Shown piece by piece: positions 35,729 to 44,328 of a stretch of 64,000 nucleotides of DNA. The DNA is from Bacteroidetes bacterium GWF2_38_335 (GTDB lineage: Bacteria > Bacteroidota > Bacteroidia > Bacteroidales > GWF2-38-335). The notes under the pieces were generated by a model. That model saw only the letters and a program-made list of their open reading frames with translations, was not told the origin of the DNA and made no database searches. The stretch is taken from contig MEOH01000016.1 of NCBI GenBank assembly GCA_001769535.1, positions 1 through 64,000 of the forward strand, written 5' to 3'. The translations under genes were made by a program, and so were the position numbers. The stretch's first letter is position 1. Each line of letters starts with the position of its first letter.

Positions 35729-38700
35729 ATGATTACCATCAAAGGCGCATCTGAAAACAATCTGAAAAACATTGATGTTTCGATTCCGGAAAATAAACTT
35801 ACTGTTATTACAGGTGTTTCAGGATCTGGTAAGTCCTCGCTGGCCTTTGACATTTTATTCAACGAAGGCCAACGCCGATATCTCGAATCATTTTCATCAT
35901 ACGCCGGTCAATACTTAAAAAAACTGAAACGCCCTGCTTTTGAAAGCATTTCCGGATTGTCCCCTGCTATCTCAATCAGCCAGTCTGTGGTCAATAACAA
36001 TCCACGCAGCACGGTAGGTACTTTATCTGAAATTTATGATTTTCTGCGACTTCTCTTTGCCCGGCTGGGTAAATCTGAAAATAACAATACCAATCCTTCT
36101 CTCAGTCTCTTTTCGTTCAACTCACATGTTGGCGCCTGTCCAAAGTGCAAAGGCATAGGTGTTGAAGATGAAATTGACTTGGAAACCCTGATCAGTGATC
36201 CTGAACTGACTATCAGACAGGGCGCTCTGACACTAACCACTCCCAACGGATATATTATTTATTCGCAGGTAACCATGGATGTGCTCGATCAGGTTTGTCA
36301 TGCCGAAGGTTTTAATGTGGATATCAAGTGGAAGGATCTTACAGAATATCAGAAAAATATCATCCTTTACGGTACCGGAAAAATAAAAATTCCTTTTGGA
36401 AAACATACACTTGAATCCAGAATGAAATGGAGTGGGATTACTGCCAAACCCAGAGAAGAAGGTTATTACAGGGGTATTGTTCCCATCATGTCTGAAATTC
36501 TGAAACGCGACCGGAATCCGAACATCCTGCGATTTGCCAAATCTGTTCCATGCACTGAATGTGGCGGAACCCGGCTGAACAAAGATGCTCTGAAATATGA
36601 GATCTCAGGAATGAACATAGCCCGGTTTAACGAATTGAGTATTGAAAGCTTAAATATTATTATTCAGAATTTATCGCTGCCCGATAAACAGATGGCTGTT
36701 GCCAATCCAGTGATAAAATCTATTCTCAAACGAACAGGATTGCTGGTTGAACTCGGATTGGGGTACCTGACTTCTCACCGCGAATCCTCATCACTTTCTG
36801 GAGGCGAGTCGCAGAGGATCAGATTGGCAAAGCAGATTTGCTCAGAATTGCACGGACTACTATATGTTCTTGATGAACCATCGGTCGGACTTCATCAGCA
36901 TGACAATGAAAAGTTGATTAAAGTGCTGCGGATGCTTGTCAACCACGGAAACACTGTGGTGGTGGTTGAACATGACGAAGAAACCATACGCAATGCCGAC
37001 TGGATCATTGATATCGGTCCGGATGCCGGTATAAACGGTGGTGAAGTGATTTTCTGCGGTGAAGCATCTGATTTTTTCAATAAAAAACATGTGCCGGGCA
37101 GTAAAACACACGAATATTACCTGACAGATAAAGTGCGTGAAATAAACAGAATGATTGCAAACGGCGAGCCCTTTCATATTGACCAAGCCGACGCCCATAA
37201 TCTTAAAAATATTTCAGCCACATTTATTTCAGGTGCCCTCAATGTCATCACAGGGGTTTCGGGTGCTGGAAAATCCAGTCTGGTTGAAGAATTAATAAAA
37301 AAGACCCTGAACCGGAAAGTTAATGGAGGCGGGCTGTTTGACAGACTGATTCACATTGACCAGTCGCCCATCGGACGAACACCCCGATCAAATCCGGCAA
37401 CTTACACAAAGCTTTTCGATTACATCAGGGATATTTTTGGAAAATTACCCGAATCAGTGTCACTTGGGTGGGATAAAAGCCGCTTTTCGTTCAATAATAC
37501 AGGCGGCAGGTGCGAAGCATGCGAGGGAGCCGGTGTCATCAGCATTGGCATGCACTTTCTTGGTAATGTGGATGTGCTGTGCGAAAAATGCAACGGAAAA
37601 AGATTCAATGATGAAACACTTGAGATAAAATACAAAGGTTATAATATTTTTGACATTCTTGAACTGTCATTCAGCGAGGCAGAAAAAGTTTTTGAAGATC
37701 ATCCCAACGCTTTAAGGATTATCAAAACCATAAATGAGCTCGGGCTCTCCTATTTAAAACTCGGGCAATCCGCCATGACCATTTCAGGTGGAGAAGCCCA
37801 AAGGGTAAAGCTGGCCGCCGAACTGGCTAAATCTGCCAAAGGGAAAGTCATTTATATTTTAGACGAACCTACCACCGGTTTGCATGCGTATGATATTGAA
37901 ATTCTGATAGATTCATTAAAAAAACTTATCAAAAAAGGTCATACCGTCCTGGTGATTGAGCACAGCATGGAAATCATTTCGTGTGCCGACAGAATCATTG
38001 ATCTGGGTCCGGGCAGCGGAAATAACGGAGGCGAGATTGTAGCCCAGTGCACGCCTGAAAAACTTATTGAAGTAAAAGCATCCAAAACCGGAAAAGCATT
38101 ACAGTATTATTTGAAAAGAAAAATCAGGAAAATTGATTTTTTATCAGATCAAAAAAGCAATGCTCAAATTGAATTTACGGGAATCACAACTAACAATCTC
38201 AAAAAAATTGATGTCAGTATTCCGGTAAACAAAATTACTGTCGTAACCGGTTTATCAGGCAGTGGTAAATCATCTCTGGCATTCGATACCATTTATTCAG
38301 AGGGACAGAACAGGTATCTTGAAAATTTCCCATCATGGGTTCGCCGACATATATCAAAATCCGGTCAGGGCAGCTTCGAAACCTGCAATGGACTTATGCC
38401 TGCCATTGCCATCAGTCAGCAATTCAGAATAAAAAACCCGCGATCAACGGTTGGAACGGTCTCAGAAATCTATGATTTATACAGATTGTTATACTCACGG
38501 GCAGGCGTTTCAGAAAAAAAATTCCCTGCATCTGCATTCTCCTTCAATAATGAATCAGGTGCCTGTGAACATTGTAAGGGATTGGGATTTATCAGAACTG
38601 TGGACCCTGATAAATTTGTGAGTTTTCCTGAAAAATCAATCTACGAAGGAGCTTTTGGCAATCATAAAGCCGGGAAATTTTATGGTGATCCTTACGGACA

Positions 38701-40492
38701 ATATATTGCCACACTATTAACTATAGAAAAAAAGTTGGGCAATGATTTTTCGGTCTCCTGGAAAAACCTTGATCAAAAATCCAAAGAAATCATTTTTGAG
38801 GGAACAGGTGAAACTGAATACGAGGTAGATTGGAATTACAAAAGAAAAGATCGCACCGGAACTTTTAAGTTCAAAACAAAATGGCCCGGATTGCGTCAGC
38901 ATATTTCTGAGGAATATAAAAGAAAGCATGCCGATAAAAGGGCTGGTGCACTCGAAGACATCATGTCAGATACAACTTGTCCATTCTGTAAAGGAATGAA
39001 ACTAAAACCCGAAGTTCTTGATGTATCCTTTGCCGGAAAAAATATTTCAGAACTGGGAAATATGTCCTTTAAATCAGCTTCCGTTTTTTTAAACATGTTG
39101 ACAAATAAATCATTAGCTCAAAATCAACTGGATATTTTAAATGAGATTCTACCATCACTGAACCTAAAATTTGAATCATTCAGCGATTTGGGAATTGCTT
39201 ATCTCTCAGCAAACCGCACCATCTCATCACTTTCAGGAGGCGAATTACACAGATGCCGGCTTGCTACGCAACTTTATTCAGGACTTTCAAACCTCATTTA
39301 CATTTTAGATGAGCCCACGGCAGGACTTCATGATAAAGACACTTCCAATCTACTTAAACTGATCAGAAAACTTCAGAAAAACAACAACACCATCATCATT
39401 TCAGAACATGACCCGATTGTGATCAGCGAAGCCGATTACATAATAGATATTGGTCCGGGCAGCGGAACCAACGGAGGAAAAATTGTTGCCAAAGGCAGTT
39501 TTGAAAGCATCCTGAATCATCCAGAATCAGTTACAGGCAAAGCCATTTTACAAAATCTGAAGCCGCAAAAAGGAATTCGCAAACAAGGCCAGGGAATTGT
39601 CATAAAAGGAGCCAGGGCCAACAATCTCAAAAACATTGATGTTTCGATATCTTCGGGAATCCTCACCGTAATAACAGGAGTTTCGGGCAGTGGAAAAACC
39701 AGTCTGCTTGAAGAAGTGATTAACGGATCCTTTGAAAAAAGAAAAGCTCAGCATTGCGTGTCAATTGATGGCATGGAAAACTTTGACAAAGTCATTGCCA
39801 TTATCTCCGGAGCAACAACATTCGGCAATTCCGGAACAGTAGGAACATATTCAGGTTTGTGGGATCTGGTCAGGGATGAGATGGCCTCATTAAAAGAAGC
39901 AAAGGAAAAAGGGCTGACAAAAAATCATTTTTCGCATAATTCTGCATTGGGAAAATGCCCGCATTGTAAAGGTCAGGGAGAAATAAAAATGAGCATGGAT
40001 TTTATGGCTGATGTTTTTATTACCTGTGATGAATGTAATGGAGACAGATTTAATGCCGAAGTGCTTGGGTTCGAACACAAGGGAAAGAATATCCGGGAAA
40101 TTATGGACCTGAGTATTTCTGAATTGTCAGCATTTTTCAGTGAGAACAGAGCCATTAAATCATTGGCTCAATTATTCAGGAAAGCCGGACTTGATTATTT
40201 ATGTGCTGGTCAGTCCACCAACACGCTGTCAGGAGGAGAAAAGCAAAGATTAAAATTGGTTTCGGCGTTAGCCGGAAATATCAAATCAAACTGTTTATTT
40301 TTGTTTGATGAACCCACAACCGGTTTGCACATCAACGACACAATAAAATTACTGGAGTTTTTCAACGAACTACTTGTCCAGGGGCACACCATCATTGTCA
40401 CAGAGCACAACCGTCAGGTCATTGATTATGCTGATTATATTATTGAAATGGGGCCCGGAGCGGGAGAAGAAGGGGGAAGCATTGTTAATTGA
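35729..40492 (+). CDS. Double-length UvrA-like ABC ATPase lacking UvrB-binding domains
   Basis: A 1587-residue protein made of two UvrA-like units in tandem (about 1-790 and 805-1587), hence four ABC ATPase halves. Walker A motifs start at residues 29, 509, 841 and 1317. Each half has its zinc-finger Cys pairs, an LSGGE-type signature (MTISGGE in the second) and an intact DEP-T/S-x-GLH Walker B. Walker A spacing within each unit is about 480 residues instead of about 610 in canonical UvrA, because the sequence passes directly from EIYDFLRLLFARLG to the FSFNS...CPKC region; the UvrB-binding domain is absent from both units. Half 4 is most divergent (GATTFGNSGTVGTYS replaces SPIGRTPRSNPATYT). 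Probably not the repair UvrA; a resistance or nucleic-acid-surveillance role is possible. Confidence 0.92.
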   Translation: MITIKGASENNLKNIDVSIPENKLTVITGVSGSGKSSLAFDILFNEGQRRYLESFSSYAGQYLKKLKRPAFESISGLSPAISISQSVVNNNPRSTVGTLSEIYDFLRLLFARLGKSENNNTNPSLSLFSFNSHVGACPKCKGIGVEDEIDLETLISDPELTIRQGALTLTTPNGYIIYSQVTMDVLDQVCHAEGFNVDIKWKDLTEYQKNIILYGTGKIKIPFGKHTLESRMKWSGITAKPREEGYYRGIVPIMSEILKRDRNPNILRFAKSVPCTECGGTRLNKDALKYEISGMNIARFNELSIESLNIIIQNLSLPDKQMAVANPVIKSILKRTGLLVELGLGYLTSHRESSSLSGGESQRIRLAKQICSELHGLLYVLDEPSVGLHQHDNEKLIKVLRMLVNHGNTVVVVEHDEETIRNADWIIDIGPDAGINGGEVIFCGEASDFFNKKHVPGSKTHEYYLTDKVREINRMIANGEPFHIDQADAHNLKNISATFISGALNVITGVSGAGKSSLVEELIKKTLNRKVNGGGLFDRLIHIDQSPIGRTPRSNPATYTKLFDYIRDIFGKLPESVSLGWDKSRFSFNNTGGRCEACEGAGVISIGMHFLGNVDVLCEKCNGKRFNDETLEIKYKGYNIFDILELSFSEAEKVFEDHPNALRIIKTINELGLSYLKLGQSAMTISGGEAQRVKLAAELAKSAKGKVIYILDEPTTGLHAYDIEILIDSLKKLIKKGHTVLVIEHSMEIISCADRIIDLGPGSGNNGGEIVAQCTPEKLIEVKASKTGKALQYYLKRKIRKIDFLSDQKSNAQIEFTGITTNNLKKIDVSIPVNKITVVTGLSGSGKSSLAFDTIYSEGQNRYLENFPSWVRRHISKSGQGSFETCNGLMPAIAISQQFRIKNPRSTVGTVSEIYDLYRLLYSRAGVSEKKFPASAFSFNNESGACEHCKGLGFIRTVDPDKFVSFPEKSIYEGAFGNHKAGKFYGDPYGQYIATLLTIEKKLGNDFSVSWKNLDQKSKEIIFEGTGETEYEVDWNYKRKDRTGTFKFKTKWPGLRQHISEEYKRKHADKRAGALEDIMSDTTCPFCKGMKLKPEVLDVSFAGKNISELGNMSFKSASVFLNMLTNKSLAQNQLDILNEILPSLNLKFESFSDLGIAYLSANRTISSLSGGELHRCRLATQLYSGLSNLIYILDEPTAGLHDKDTSNLLKLIRKLQKNNNTIIISEHDPIVISEADYIIDIGPGSGTNGGKIVAKGSFESILNHPESVTGKAILQNLKPQKGIRKQGQGIVIKGARANNLKNIDVSISSGILTVITGVSGSGKTSLLEEVINGSFEKRKAQHCVSIDGMENFDKVIAIISGATTFGNSGTVGTYSGLWDLVRDEMASLKEAKEKGLTKNHFSHNSALGKCPHCKGQGEIKMSMDFMADVFITCDECNGDRFNAEVLGFEHKGKNIREIMDLSISELSAFFSENRAIKSLAQLFRKAGLDYLCAGQSTNTLSGGEKQRLKLVSALAGNIKSNCLFLFDEPTTGLHINDTIKLLEFFNELLVQGHTIIVTEHNRQVIDYADYIIEMGPGAGEEGGSIVN

Positions 40493-43704: not shown

Positions 43705-43790
43705 GCCTTGGTGGCGGAATTGGTAGACGCGCAGGACTTAAAATCCTGTGGTTTGTAAAGACCGTGCCGGTTCGATTCCGGCCCGAGGTA
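43705..43790 (+). tRNA. tRNA-Leu (anticodon TAA)
   Basis: An 86-nt class II tRNA. Acceptor GCCTTGG/CCGAGGT (one G-T pair) with discriminator A, anticodon stem CAGGA/TCCTG around CTTAAAA (anticodon TAA), a long variable arm (TGGTTTGTAAAGACCG) and T arm GCCGG/CCGGC. CCA is not encoded. A damaged second copy lies at 44149-44274. Confidence 0.96.
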
Positions 43791-43795
43791 CAGAA

Positions 43796-43820
43796 AGCAG
43801 AGAATTGTCTCTGCTTTTTT
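43796..43820 (+). terminator. Terminator of tRNA-Leu
   Basis: AAGCAGAG/CTCTGCTT stem with loop AATTGT, then a T run, immediately 3' of the tRNA. Confidence 0.88.
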
Positions 43821-43864: not shown

Positions 43865-44149
43865 ATGGCTACTGTTTATATCCTTTTCTCAGAAAATCTT
43901 AATGCTTTTTATACAGGAAGTTGTTTAAATATGGAACAAAGGTTTATTGACCATTTAACCCATAAATTCATTGATTCTTTTACTTCCAAAGCTTCTGATT
44001 GGGTTATTTTTCTTTCAATTGACAATTTGGAGTACCAGCAGGCCCGAAATATTGAAAAGCACATTAAATCAATGAAAAGCAAAAAATATATTATAAGTCT
44101 GAAAAATTACCCCGATTTAGTCAACAAATTAACTCACAGATTCTTATAG
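43865..44149 (+). CDS. GIY-YIG family endonuclease-like protein
   Basis: A 94-residue single-domain GIY-YIG protein. VYILFS near residue 4 and FYTGS near 15-19 form the divergent GIY...YIG pair. Arg26 follows in MEQRFIDHL, and the C-terminal half contains an acidic/helix segment (ARNIEKHIKSMKSKKY) typical of the small URI/UPF0213-like group. The size is that of stand-alone bacterial GIY-YIG proteins of unclear role. It lies between an intact tRNA-Leu and a broken tRNA-Leu copy, and its stop codon overlaps the start of the latter, which suggests that it arrived with, or mobilised, a tRNA segment. Confidence 0.85.
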   Translation: MATVYILFSENLNAFYTGSCLNMEQRFIDHLTHKFIDSFTSKASDWVIFLSIDNLEYQQARNIEKHIKSMKSKKYIISLKNYPDLVNKLTHRFL

Positions 44150-44274
44150 GTAGCGACCACGATAGCTTTCGGGGTGGTAGACGCGCTGGTCCCGATAGCT
44201 ATCGGGATAAAATCCTGTGGTTTGTAAAGACCGTGCCGGTTCGTCCCGATAGCTTTCGGTACCGGCCCGAGGTA
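44149..44274 (+). pseudogene. tRNA-Leu pseudogene with three palindromic insertions
   Basis: Aligns with tRNA-Leu (43705-43790) over nearly its full length. The variable arm and flanks (AAAATCCTGTGGTTTGTAAA) and the 3' acceptor half are unchanged, but three 16-bp palindromes interrupt it: CACGATAGCTTTCGGG (44158-44173) in the D loop, CCCGATAGCTATCGGG (44191-44206) in the anticodon loop and CCCGATAGCTTTCGGT (44245-44260) in the T loop. Each lies in a loop of the cloverleaf. The anticodon is destroyed and the 5' acceptor strand is replaced by the end of the GIY-YIG gene, so it cannot decode Leu. Confidence 0.88.
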
Positions 44275-44281
44275 GAATTTT

Positions 44282-44328
44282 AAGCGTGTATGTAATGCCA
44301 TGAATTGCATTGCATACACGCTTTTTTT
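44282..44328 (+). terminator. Strong terminator hairpin after the tRNA-Leu pseudogene
   Basis: Stem AAGCGTGTATG/CATACACGCTT extended by AATGC/GCATT across a T-G mismatch, 8-nt loop, then seven T residues. Confidence 0.9.

Follow-up and report, generated by a model that had tools for sequence, protein, structure and literature searches.

Mitochondrial homing elements of the gene-splitting kind split a gene and supply the part that is lost. Palindromic units lying within genes, RNA genes included, are represented by the Rickettsia palindromic elements, and the double-hairpin elements of mitochondrial DNA are short hairpin units that enter the loops of tRNA and rRNA genes. Among free-standing nucleases, SegB of the T-even phages is a GIY-YIG homing endonuclease that lies beside tRNA genes of many isotypes; it reportedly cleaves DNA containing tRNA genes and, by way of recombination, brings about tandem amplification (PMC13096335). 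Short, mostly intergenic, dispersed palindromes are a feature of the REP/RAYT systems (PMC3733652).

The locus considered here lies in a 64,000-nt stretch of DNA (the window; positions 1 to 64,000 of contig MEOH01000016.1) from Bacteroidetes bacterium GWF2_38_335, in which an intact tRNA-Leu(TAA) gene is followed by an ORF for a GIY-YIG protein and then by a tRNA-Leu copy bearing hairpins (Table 1). As in the mitochondrial gene-splitting elements, a split would be combined with a replacement, but theirs are organelle protein genes, whereas here the genes are bacterial tRNA genes. The Rickettsia elements are longer than the unit found here, in which 18 nt stand for 3 nt and whose copies lie, by eye, mostly outside genes; the mitochondrial double-hairpin elements differ from it in that the present unit is bacterial, consists of a single hairpin, shows an exact 3-nt exchange and is linked to a GIY-YIG gene. 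A GIY-YIG gene adjoining tRNA genes of many isotypes is common to SegB and to the cassettes described below, but SegB belongs to phages, whereas the window protein had no match among 50,697 phage records at an E value of 1e-3, and hairpin-armed tRNA copies, a feature of the cassettes, are not mentioned for SegB in the available portion of its description (PMC13096335). The unit is likewise a short, dispersed and mostly intergenic palindrome in the manner of REP sequences, but no GTAG/CGTC tag was seen on it, and it does not flank the genome's own Y1_Tnp genes and shows an exact loss of 3 nt. Free-standing GIY-YIG genes at tRNAs and short dispersed palindromes are known parts; the locus joins dispersed Bacteroidota palindromes with small tRNA-side GIY-YIG genes, and no literature pairing them was found. 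The cassette layout was not described in the titles or abstract openings of open-licence papers on GIY-YIG, tRNA and Bacteroidetes/Flavobacterium, and its recurrence beside many tRNA genes in Bacteroidota suggests that tRNAs are exploited by a selfish gene of a type not yet described.

Table 1. Features of the tRNA-Leu locus, in coordinates of the window
Feature	Position	Strand	Basis
Intact tRNA-Leu(TAA)	43705..43791	+	ARAGORN; Rfam tRNA match at the same place in L131
Hairpin and T run, terminator-like, 3' of the intact tRNA	43794..43819	+	By eye
94-aa GIY-YIG ORF, on the tRNA's own strand	43865..44149	+	Pfam PF01541 match
tRNA-Leu 3' copy; 5' end matched poorly, overlapping the end of the ORF	44144..44274	+	Sequence alignment
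Unit 1, degenerate, D loop, replaces AAT	44157..44174	+	Sequence alignment, motif scan
Unit 2, perfect TCCCGATAGCTATCGGGA, anticodon arm, replaces ACT	44190..44207	+	Alignment, motif scan, automatic gap test
Unit 3, degenerate, T loop, replaces ATT	44244..44261	+	Alignment, motif scan, automatic gap test
Hairpin and T run, terminator-like, 3' of the copy	44282..44328	+	By eye

The initial annotation had described the copy as a tRNA-Leu pseudogene interrupted by 16-bp palindromes in its D, anticodon and T loops. The placement stood, and the unit was sharpened to 18 nt (TCCCGATAGCTATCGGGA type), each unit replacing 3 nt for a net gain of 15. Lengths agree with this exchange, 43705-43790 measuring 86 nt and 86 + 3 x 15 giving 131 nt, the length of 44144-44274. 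In the anticodon arm, the lost triplet consisted of the final base of the stem and two bases of the loop. The losses of ACT and ATT were both recovered by the automatic gap test described below, which did not recover the D-loop unit, the most mutated of the three. The palindromes had also been called near-identical, which is exact for the middle unit; the outer two are approximate and contain mismatches. A scan of the window for the 16-mer CCCGATAGCTATCGGG with up to three mismatches returned only the three units (at 44158 with two mismatches, 44191 with none and 44245 with two) against 0.04 expected from shuffles, in agreement with the earlier statement that the motif occurs nowhere else in the window. 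The presence of an intact tRNA-Leu some 400 bp away was confirmed by ARAGORN, and BLAST alignment of this gene with the copy gave identity at 36/36 bases over tRNA positions 35-70 and at 13/13 over positions 74-86. As the first of these stretches begins in the anticodon loop, takes in the variable arm and ends in the T stem, the variable arm of the copy is indeed untouched. Only the first 13 nt or so of the copy, where it overlaps the end of the ORF, matched the tRNA poorly, and ARAGORN made no tRNA call on the copy. No upstream 5' tRNA-Leu copy was found in the window, and no integrase gene was found between the intact tRNA and the 3' copy, where the GIY-YIG ORF is the only notable feature of the + strand.

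What the initial annotation had overlooked was this 94-aa gene between tRNA and copy, together with the occurrence of hairpin-armed tRNA copies beside GIY-YIG genes in many Bacteroidota. The ORF matched the Pfam GIY-YIG family PF01541 with an E value of 5.6e-7 (30.2 bits against a cut-off of 22.6), whereas its match to a group I intron endonuclease model of NCBIfam fell short of that model's cut-off. Relatives of the protein were found in 108 of 395 Bacteroidota genomes, and a search by sequence found none of solved structure. A reading of the protein as a defence gene was set aside, the PADLOC match being marginal (E 0.0076).

Several of the GIY-YIG genes in five genomes adjoined tRNAs with partial tRNA copies. 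In all, 97 GIY-YIG loci were assembled: 30 from the protein search, the window included, 60 taken by place from its list and 7 from the five-genome survey. A nearby tRNA was present at 78 of them; partial tRNA copies accompanied it at 71 (26 from the protein search, 39 by place and 6 from the five-genome survey) and were absent at 7, while the remaining 19 had no ARAGORN tRNA in the flank examined. Partial duplicates, judged by their place, were removed before the copies were counted. In the source genome, the GIY-YIG loci L116, L128 and L133 gave no tRNA match. Location at the putative target gene was thus seen at 71 of the 78 tRNA loci, and relatives lacking the cassette were found: at 29 tRNA-Gly-region loci from other genomes within the order, 27 of which have tRNA-Leu(TAA) close by, the window protein had no match in the flank examined, some flanks being cut short by contig ends. 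Units consisting of a GIY-YIG gene and a tRNA copy were repeated in tandem at L276, L312 and L324, and a further tandem GIY-YIG array, in G285, was seen without a tRNA. The same anatomy was present in a type strain, Gillisia limnaea DSM 15749.

An interior hairpin absent from the tRNA was present in 122 of 135 copies at a stem length of at least 5, compared with 52% of size-matched random windows, and in 116 of 135 at a stem length of at least 6, compared with 25%. Hairpins ending in TCCCG, CCCCG or TCCG (TCC(C)G...C(G)GGA or CCCCG...CGGGG) were found at 52 of the 71 loci, with 16 loci having only other hairpins and 3 having none. The whole anticodon arm had been exchanged for a hairpin at 18 loci representing 7 isotypes, with the break at positions 27/45 or no more than about 2 nt away, although some of these exchanged arms, those of Lys above all (L318 and L277, for example), may be natural arms that have changed. 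The T loop was struck in copies of Asp, Asn and Phe tRNAs, and the anticodon loop or its 3' side in Met copies. The copies also showed a polarity: among downstream copies, 39 locus-sides matched the tRNA better to the right of the hairpin, 14 showed the opposite and 4 were equal, and among upstream copies 20 matched better to the left, 4 showed the opposite and 2 were equal. In the sequences compared, the 5' half is mostly the better preserved one in upstream copies and the 3' half in downstream copies, the pattern that would be expected if a tRNA gene had been split at the arm, with the intact tRNA within. As a control, 29 tRNA-Gly/Leu loci without a GIY-YIG gene (59 tRNAs, all from one neighbourhood of one order) gave five BLAST matches of 13-19 nt, two of which represented antisense tRNA, while in another (L365) a 15-nt duplicate precedes an inverted stretch; the hairpin test covers the cassette copies rather than these control matches.

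Palindromes in tRNA copies were also found without a GIY-YIG search, at seven places (the window, L061, L082, L170, L216, L242 and L252). A GIY-YIG gene lay beside the copy at four of them (the window, L061, L216 and L252) and was absent from the flank examined at L082, L170 and L242. The first of these three (L082 1376-2235) is the corresponding tRNA-Gly/tRNA-Leu(TAA) site in a genome from a different family within the order, where six 5' tRNA-Leu copies set 89 bp apart, each with a D-loop palindrome, precede an intact tRNA-Leu and a 3' copy with a T-loop palindrome; it contains no GIY-YIG gene, nor room for one. Such armed copies lacking the gene may be relics, or may indicate that the gene is dispensable.

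The best explanation is a SegB-like, tRNA-associated GIY-YIG homing cassette whose tRNA remnants become hairpin-armed, and this was judged to have about even chances of being correct. It draws upon the GIY-YIG domain, the tRNA copies at 71 loci, the near absence of such copies at the control loci, the armed copies, their polarity, the 3-for-18 exchange treated below and the tandem units, as well as upon the Gillisia limnaea anatomy and the four of seven palindrome-bearing tRNA copies that lie beside a GIY-YIG gene. Such an element would split a tRNA gene and bring with it an intact replacement. By analogy with SegB, its nuclease would cut tRNA-gene DNA, and recombinational repair would spread the cassette and amplify it in tandem. 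Palindromes from the genome's pool would then enter the dispensable copy at breaks or at extruded arms, through break repair or loop exchange. The hairpins would persist since, by removing the target, the anticodon or the homology, they keep the copy from being cut, from serving as a tRNA or from recombining with the intact gene. Should the cassette be mobile, a selfish nuclease obliged to provide a substitute tRNA would repeatedly target tRNA genes throughout the phylum and would shape the number and sequence of tRNAs. Against this explanation stand several observations. The model gives no reason for the intact tRNA to escape cutting; three of the seven palindrome-bearing tRNA copies, L082 among them, have no GIY-YIG gene; the window has no upstream 5' copy and the G285 array no tRNA; the protein has no phage match; and most occurrences of the dispersed palindrome are away from tRNA copies. 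Furthermore, random windows have a high background of hairpins, some arms may be natural ones that have been altered, the 19 loci with other hairpins or none depart from the common type, and the polarity is reversed in 14 downstream locus-sides.

The palindrome itself proved to be a dispersed repeat, both in the source genome and in other Bacteroidota. In the source genome (5.27 Mb), CCCGATAGCTATCGGG occurred 28 times exactly and 54 times within two mismatches, with none for the reversed control. The palindrome was present in 12 of 60 genomes searched, the source genome included, in up to 48 copies, and a scan of a sequence collection gave at least 118 stretches containing it; among the matches listed, 117 were titled as Bacteroidota taxa and one as 'uncultured bacterium'. 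The exact palindrome was absent from the same-genus genome G001, and no occurrence of CCCGATAGCTATCGGG was found in the open-licence literature searched. Palindromes used by the cassettes differ in sequence. The TCCGYTRGCYARCGGA class occurred at 11 places in the source genome (two within tRNA-Val copies on contig C14, two at the flanks of a GIY-YIG gene on contig C18 and seven elsewhere), 10 times in G294, 7 times in G247 and 6 times in G421, five of the latter within its own cassette, and not at all in G303 and G245. The more general pattern TCCCG-N2-9-CGGGA was found in 391 of 395 genomes, in many cases well above its reversed control, as in G433 (90/0) and G285 (80/0), though not in all, with 22/108 in G131 and 87/54 in the source genome. 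In a second GIY-YIG locus of the source genome, on C18 (L116 1235-1991), the gene lies between direct repeats that each hold TCCGCTAGCCAGCGGA. On C16 (246248-247394; L011-L013), direct repeats some 560-570 bp apart, one of which includes a run of N, each have TCCCGATAGCTATCGGGA soon after an CGCTAGCTAGCGG palindrome, and an intergenic repeat, ATTCGCGCATTAGCGGC, on C4, C6, C16 and C18 often forms close inverted pairs and so potential long hairpins.

Filled and empty sites were found within one genome. The pattern ATTCGCGC-N-GCGGC occurred at 63 places in the source genome, spanning 17 nt at 55 of these, 18 nt at one, 28 nt without a palindrome at another and 32 nt, exactly 15 more, at six, of which three had TCCC...GGGA ends and three ATCC...GGAT ends. 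The automatic gap test took the 9-nt flanks of 225 copies with up to three mismatches to the 18-mer, dropped low-complexity flanks, and searched the source genome itself, or the same locus for copies from other genomes, for both flanks with one mismatch each and 0-17 nt apart. A counterpart with 3 nt in place of 18 was found for 36 of the 225 sites, as opposed to 2 of 1125 random pseudo-sites; these sites are partly non-independent, many of the source genome's own belonging to two repeat families and two coming from the L082 array. Spacings of 2, 4 and 5 nt were each found five times, and 11 nt 14 times, the latter arising from repeats with an 8-nt period. The counterparts indicate that three bases were lost and none duplicated, so the target-site duplication typical of IS elements and MITEs was not seen at sites with a counterpart. 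The triplet lost was often ANT (28 of 38 triplets), but no target rule is claimed, given that two repeat families account for many of the sites and that the alignment is biased against T as the first base and against A as the last. The 3-for-18 exchange of palindromes, read here from filled and empty sites, makes the spread of very short palindromes directly testable. A more specific form of the cassette explanation, in which selfish cassettes of Bacteroidota split tRNA genes, supply an intact tRNA and leave behind arms exchanged by an undescribed, precise 3-for-18 or arm-for-arm reaction, is put forward only tentatively and is rather doubtful. Another hairpin would here replace an extruded or cut hairpin loop, its source being the genome's own pool of palindromes.

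As the dispersed copies are mostly outside tRNA copies, the palindrome need not be moved by the GIY-YIG gene. A mobile palindromic unit of the non-autonomous kind was considered, along the lines of the initial proposal; it would insert into single-stranded DNA or the loops of hairpins by means of a RAYT/IS200-like or other enzyme. On this view the GIY-YIG gene would be a bystander and the tRNA copy merely a convenient target. Besides the dispersed copies with filled and empty sites and the armed copies without a GIY-YIG gene, the recurrence of particular positions is in keeping with this. D-loop units were found in tRNA copies of the window, L170 (tRNA-Gly), L216 (tRNA-Phe), L242 (tRNA-Ala), L061 (tRNA-Pro, with a loss of 4 nt) and L082, and T-loop units in those of the window and, as a variant, L082. 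Outside the loops, palindromes lay at the junction of anticodon arm and variable region in L126, in the D stem in L033 and in the variable region of the Gillisia limnaea tRNA-Asn copies. Strong hairpin tips held 13 of 186 exact palindrome copies compared with 1.1% of control positions, terminator-like loops in L204 and L224 among them. Palindromes were also found in variable parts of two full-length rnpB genes: in L234 (7144-7607) one forms the first variable helix, which we take to be helix P3, and another lies in the variable stretch before ACAGAA, where the single palindrome of L163 (4440-4846) is also found. In a sample not selected for tRNAs, 3 of 122 palindromes lay in tRNA-like sequence compared with 9 of 2440 control positions, a modest enrichment in a test whose threshold L242 does not reach. 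The initial proposal was upheld in part, by the dispersed repeat with its filled and empty sites and by the units in D and T loops of other tRNA copies; the majority of copies lie away from hairpin tips, and a genome-wide preference for loops is but weakly indicated. Three nucleotides are lost rather than duplicated, and the many different hairpin sequences arming the copies beside GIY-YIG genes are left unexplained. Overall, a mobile unit of this kind is unlikely.

The single-strand transposase that had been suggested as its mover found no support in the source genome, where hairpins of other kinds lie near the four Y1_Tnp genes found and this palindrome is absent within about 1.5 kb of each. 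A RAYT/IS200 link was accordingly rejected for this genome, with contrary hints in two others. In G003, one of 4 to 6 Y1_Tnp genes has related CCGATAGCTATCGG palindromes, set within a longer repeat, on both sides (L100 1344 and 2417), and in G013 a Y1_Tnp gene lies about 400 bp from CCCGATAATTATCGGG (L094). No constant GTAG/CGTC tag was seen by eye at the foot of the hairpins, the usual flanking bases being T and A.

It was also considered that selection alone is at work, partial tRNA copies being made by recombination and gene-converted repeat hairpins being kept as inactivating or recombination-blocking, with no targeting. The hairpins do remove the anticodon arm in many copies, their sequence varies while pairing is kept, both in the Gillisia copies (where the ends vary from T-A to C-G) and in the tRNA-Met copies of L265, and the palindromes of the cassettes occur elsewhere too in the source genome, G294 and G247. 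However, simple deletions or point changes would suffice for inactivation, and the exact 3-for-18 exchange was also seen in ordinary intergenic repeats. Overall, this explanation is improbable.

A further suggestion, that the armed copy is a functional tRNA-like RNA which processes or regulates the tRNA/GIY-YIG transcript or serves as a decoy, would fit the swapping of arms hairpin for hairpin and the helix that a palindrome forms in full-length rnpB. The window copy, however, lacks a 5' acceptor strand that would match, and mismatches occur in two of its hairpins; such a role appears very unlikely. Folding was uninformative on this point: unit 2 of the copy was predicted to pair with unit 3, but nothing is concluded from this as the intact tRNA was itself not folded as a cloverleaf. 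An assembly artefact, for which the repetitive nature of the unit speaks and nothing more, is barely conceivable, similar anatomy having been found in Gillisia limnaea, L082 and many unrelated genomes.

Elsewhere in the window, positions 35729-40492 contain a 1587-aa ORF that appears by eye to consist of two UvrA-type ATPases fused in one chain.
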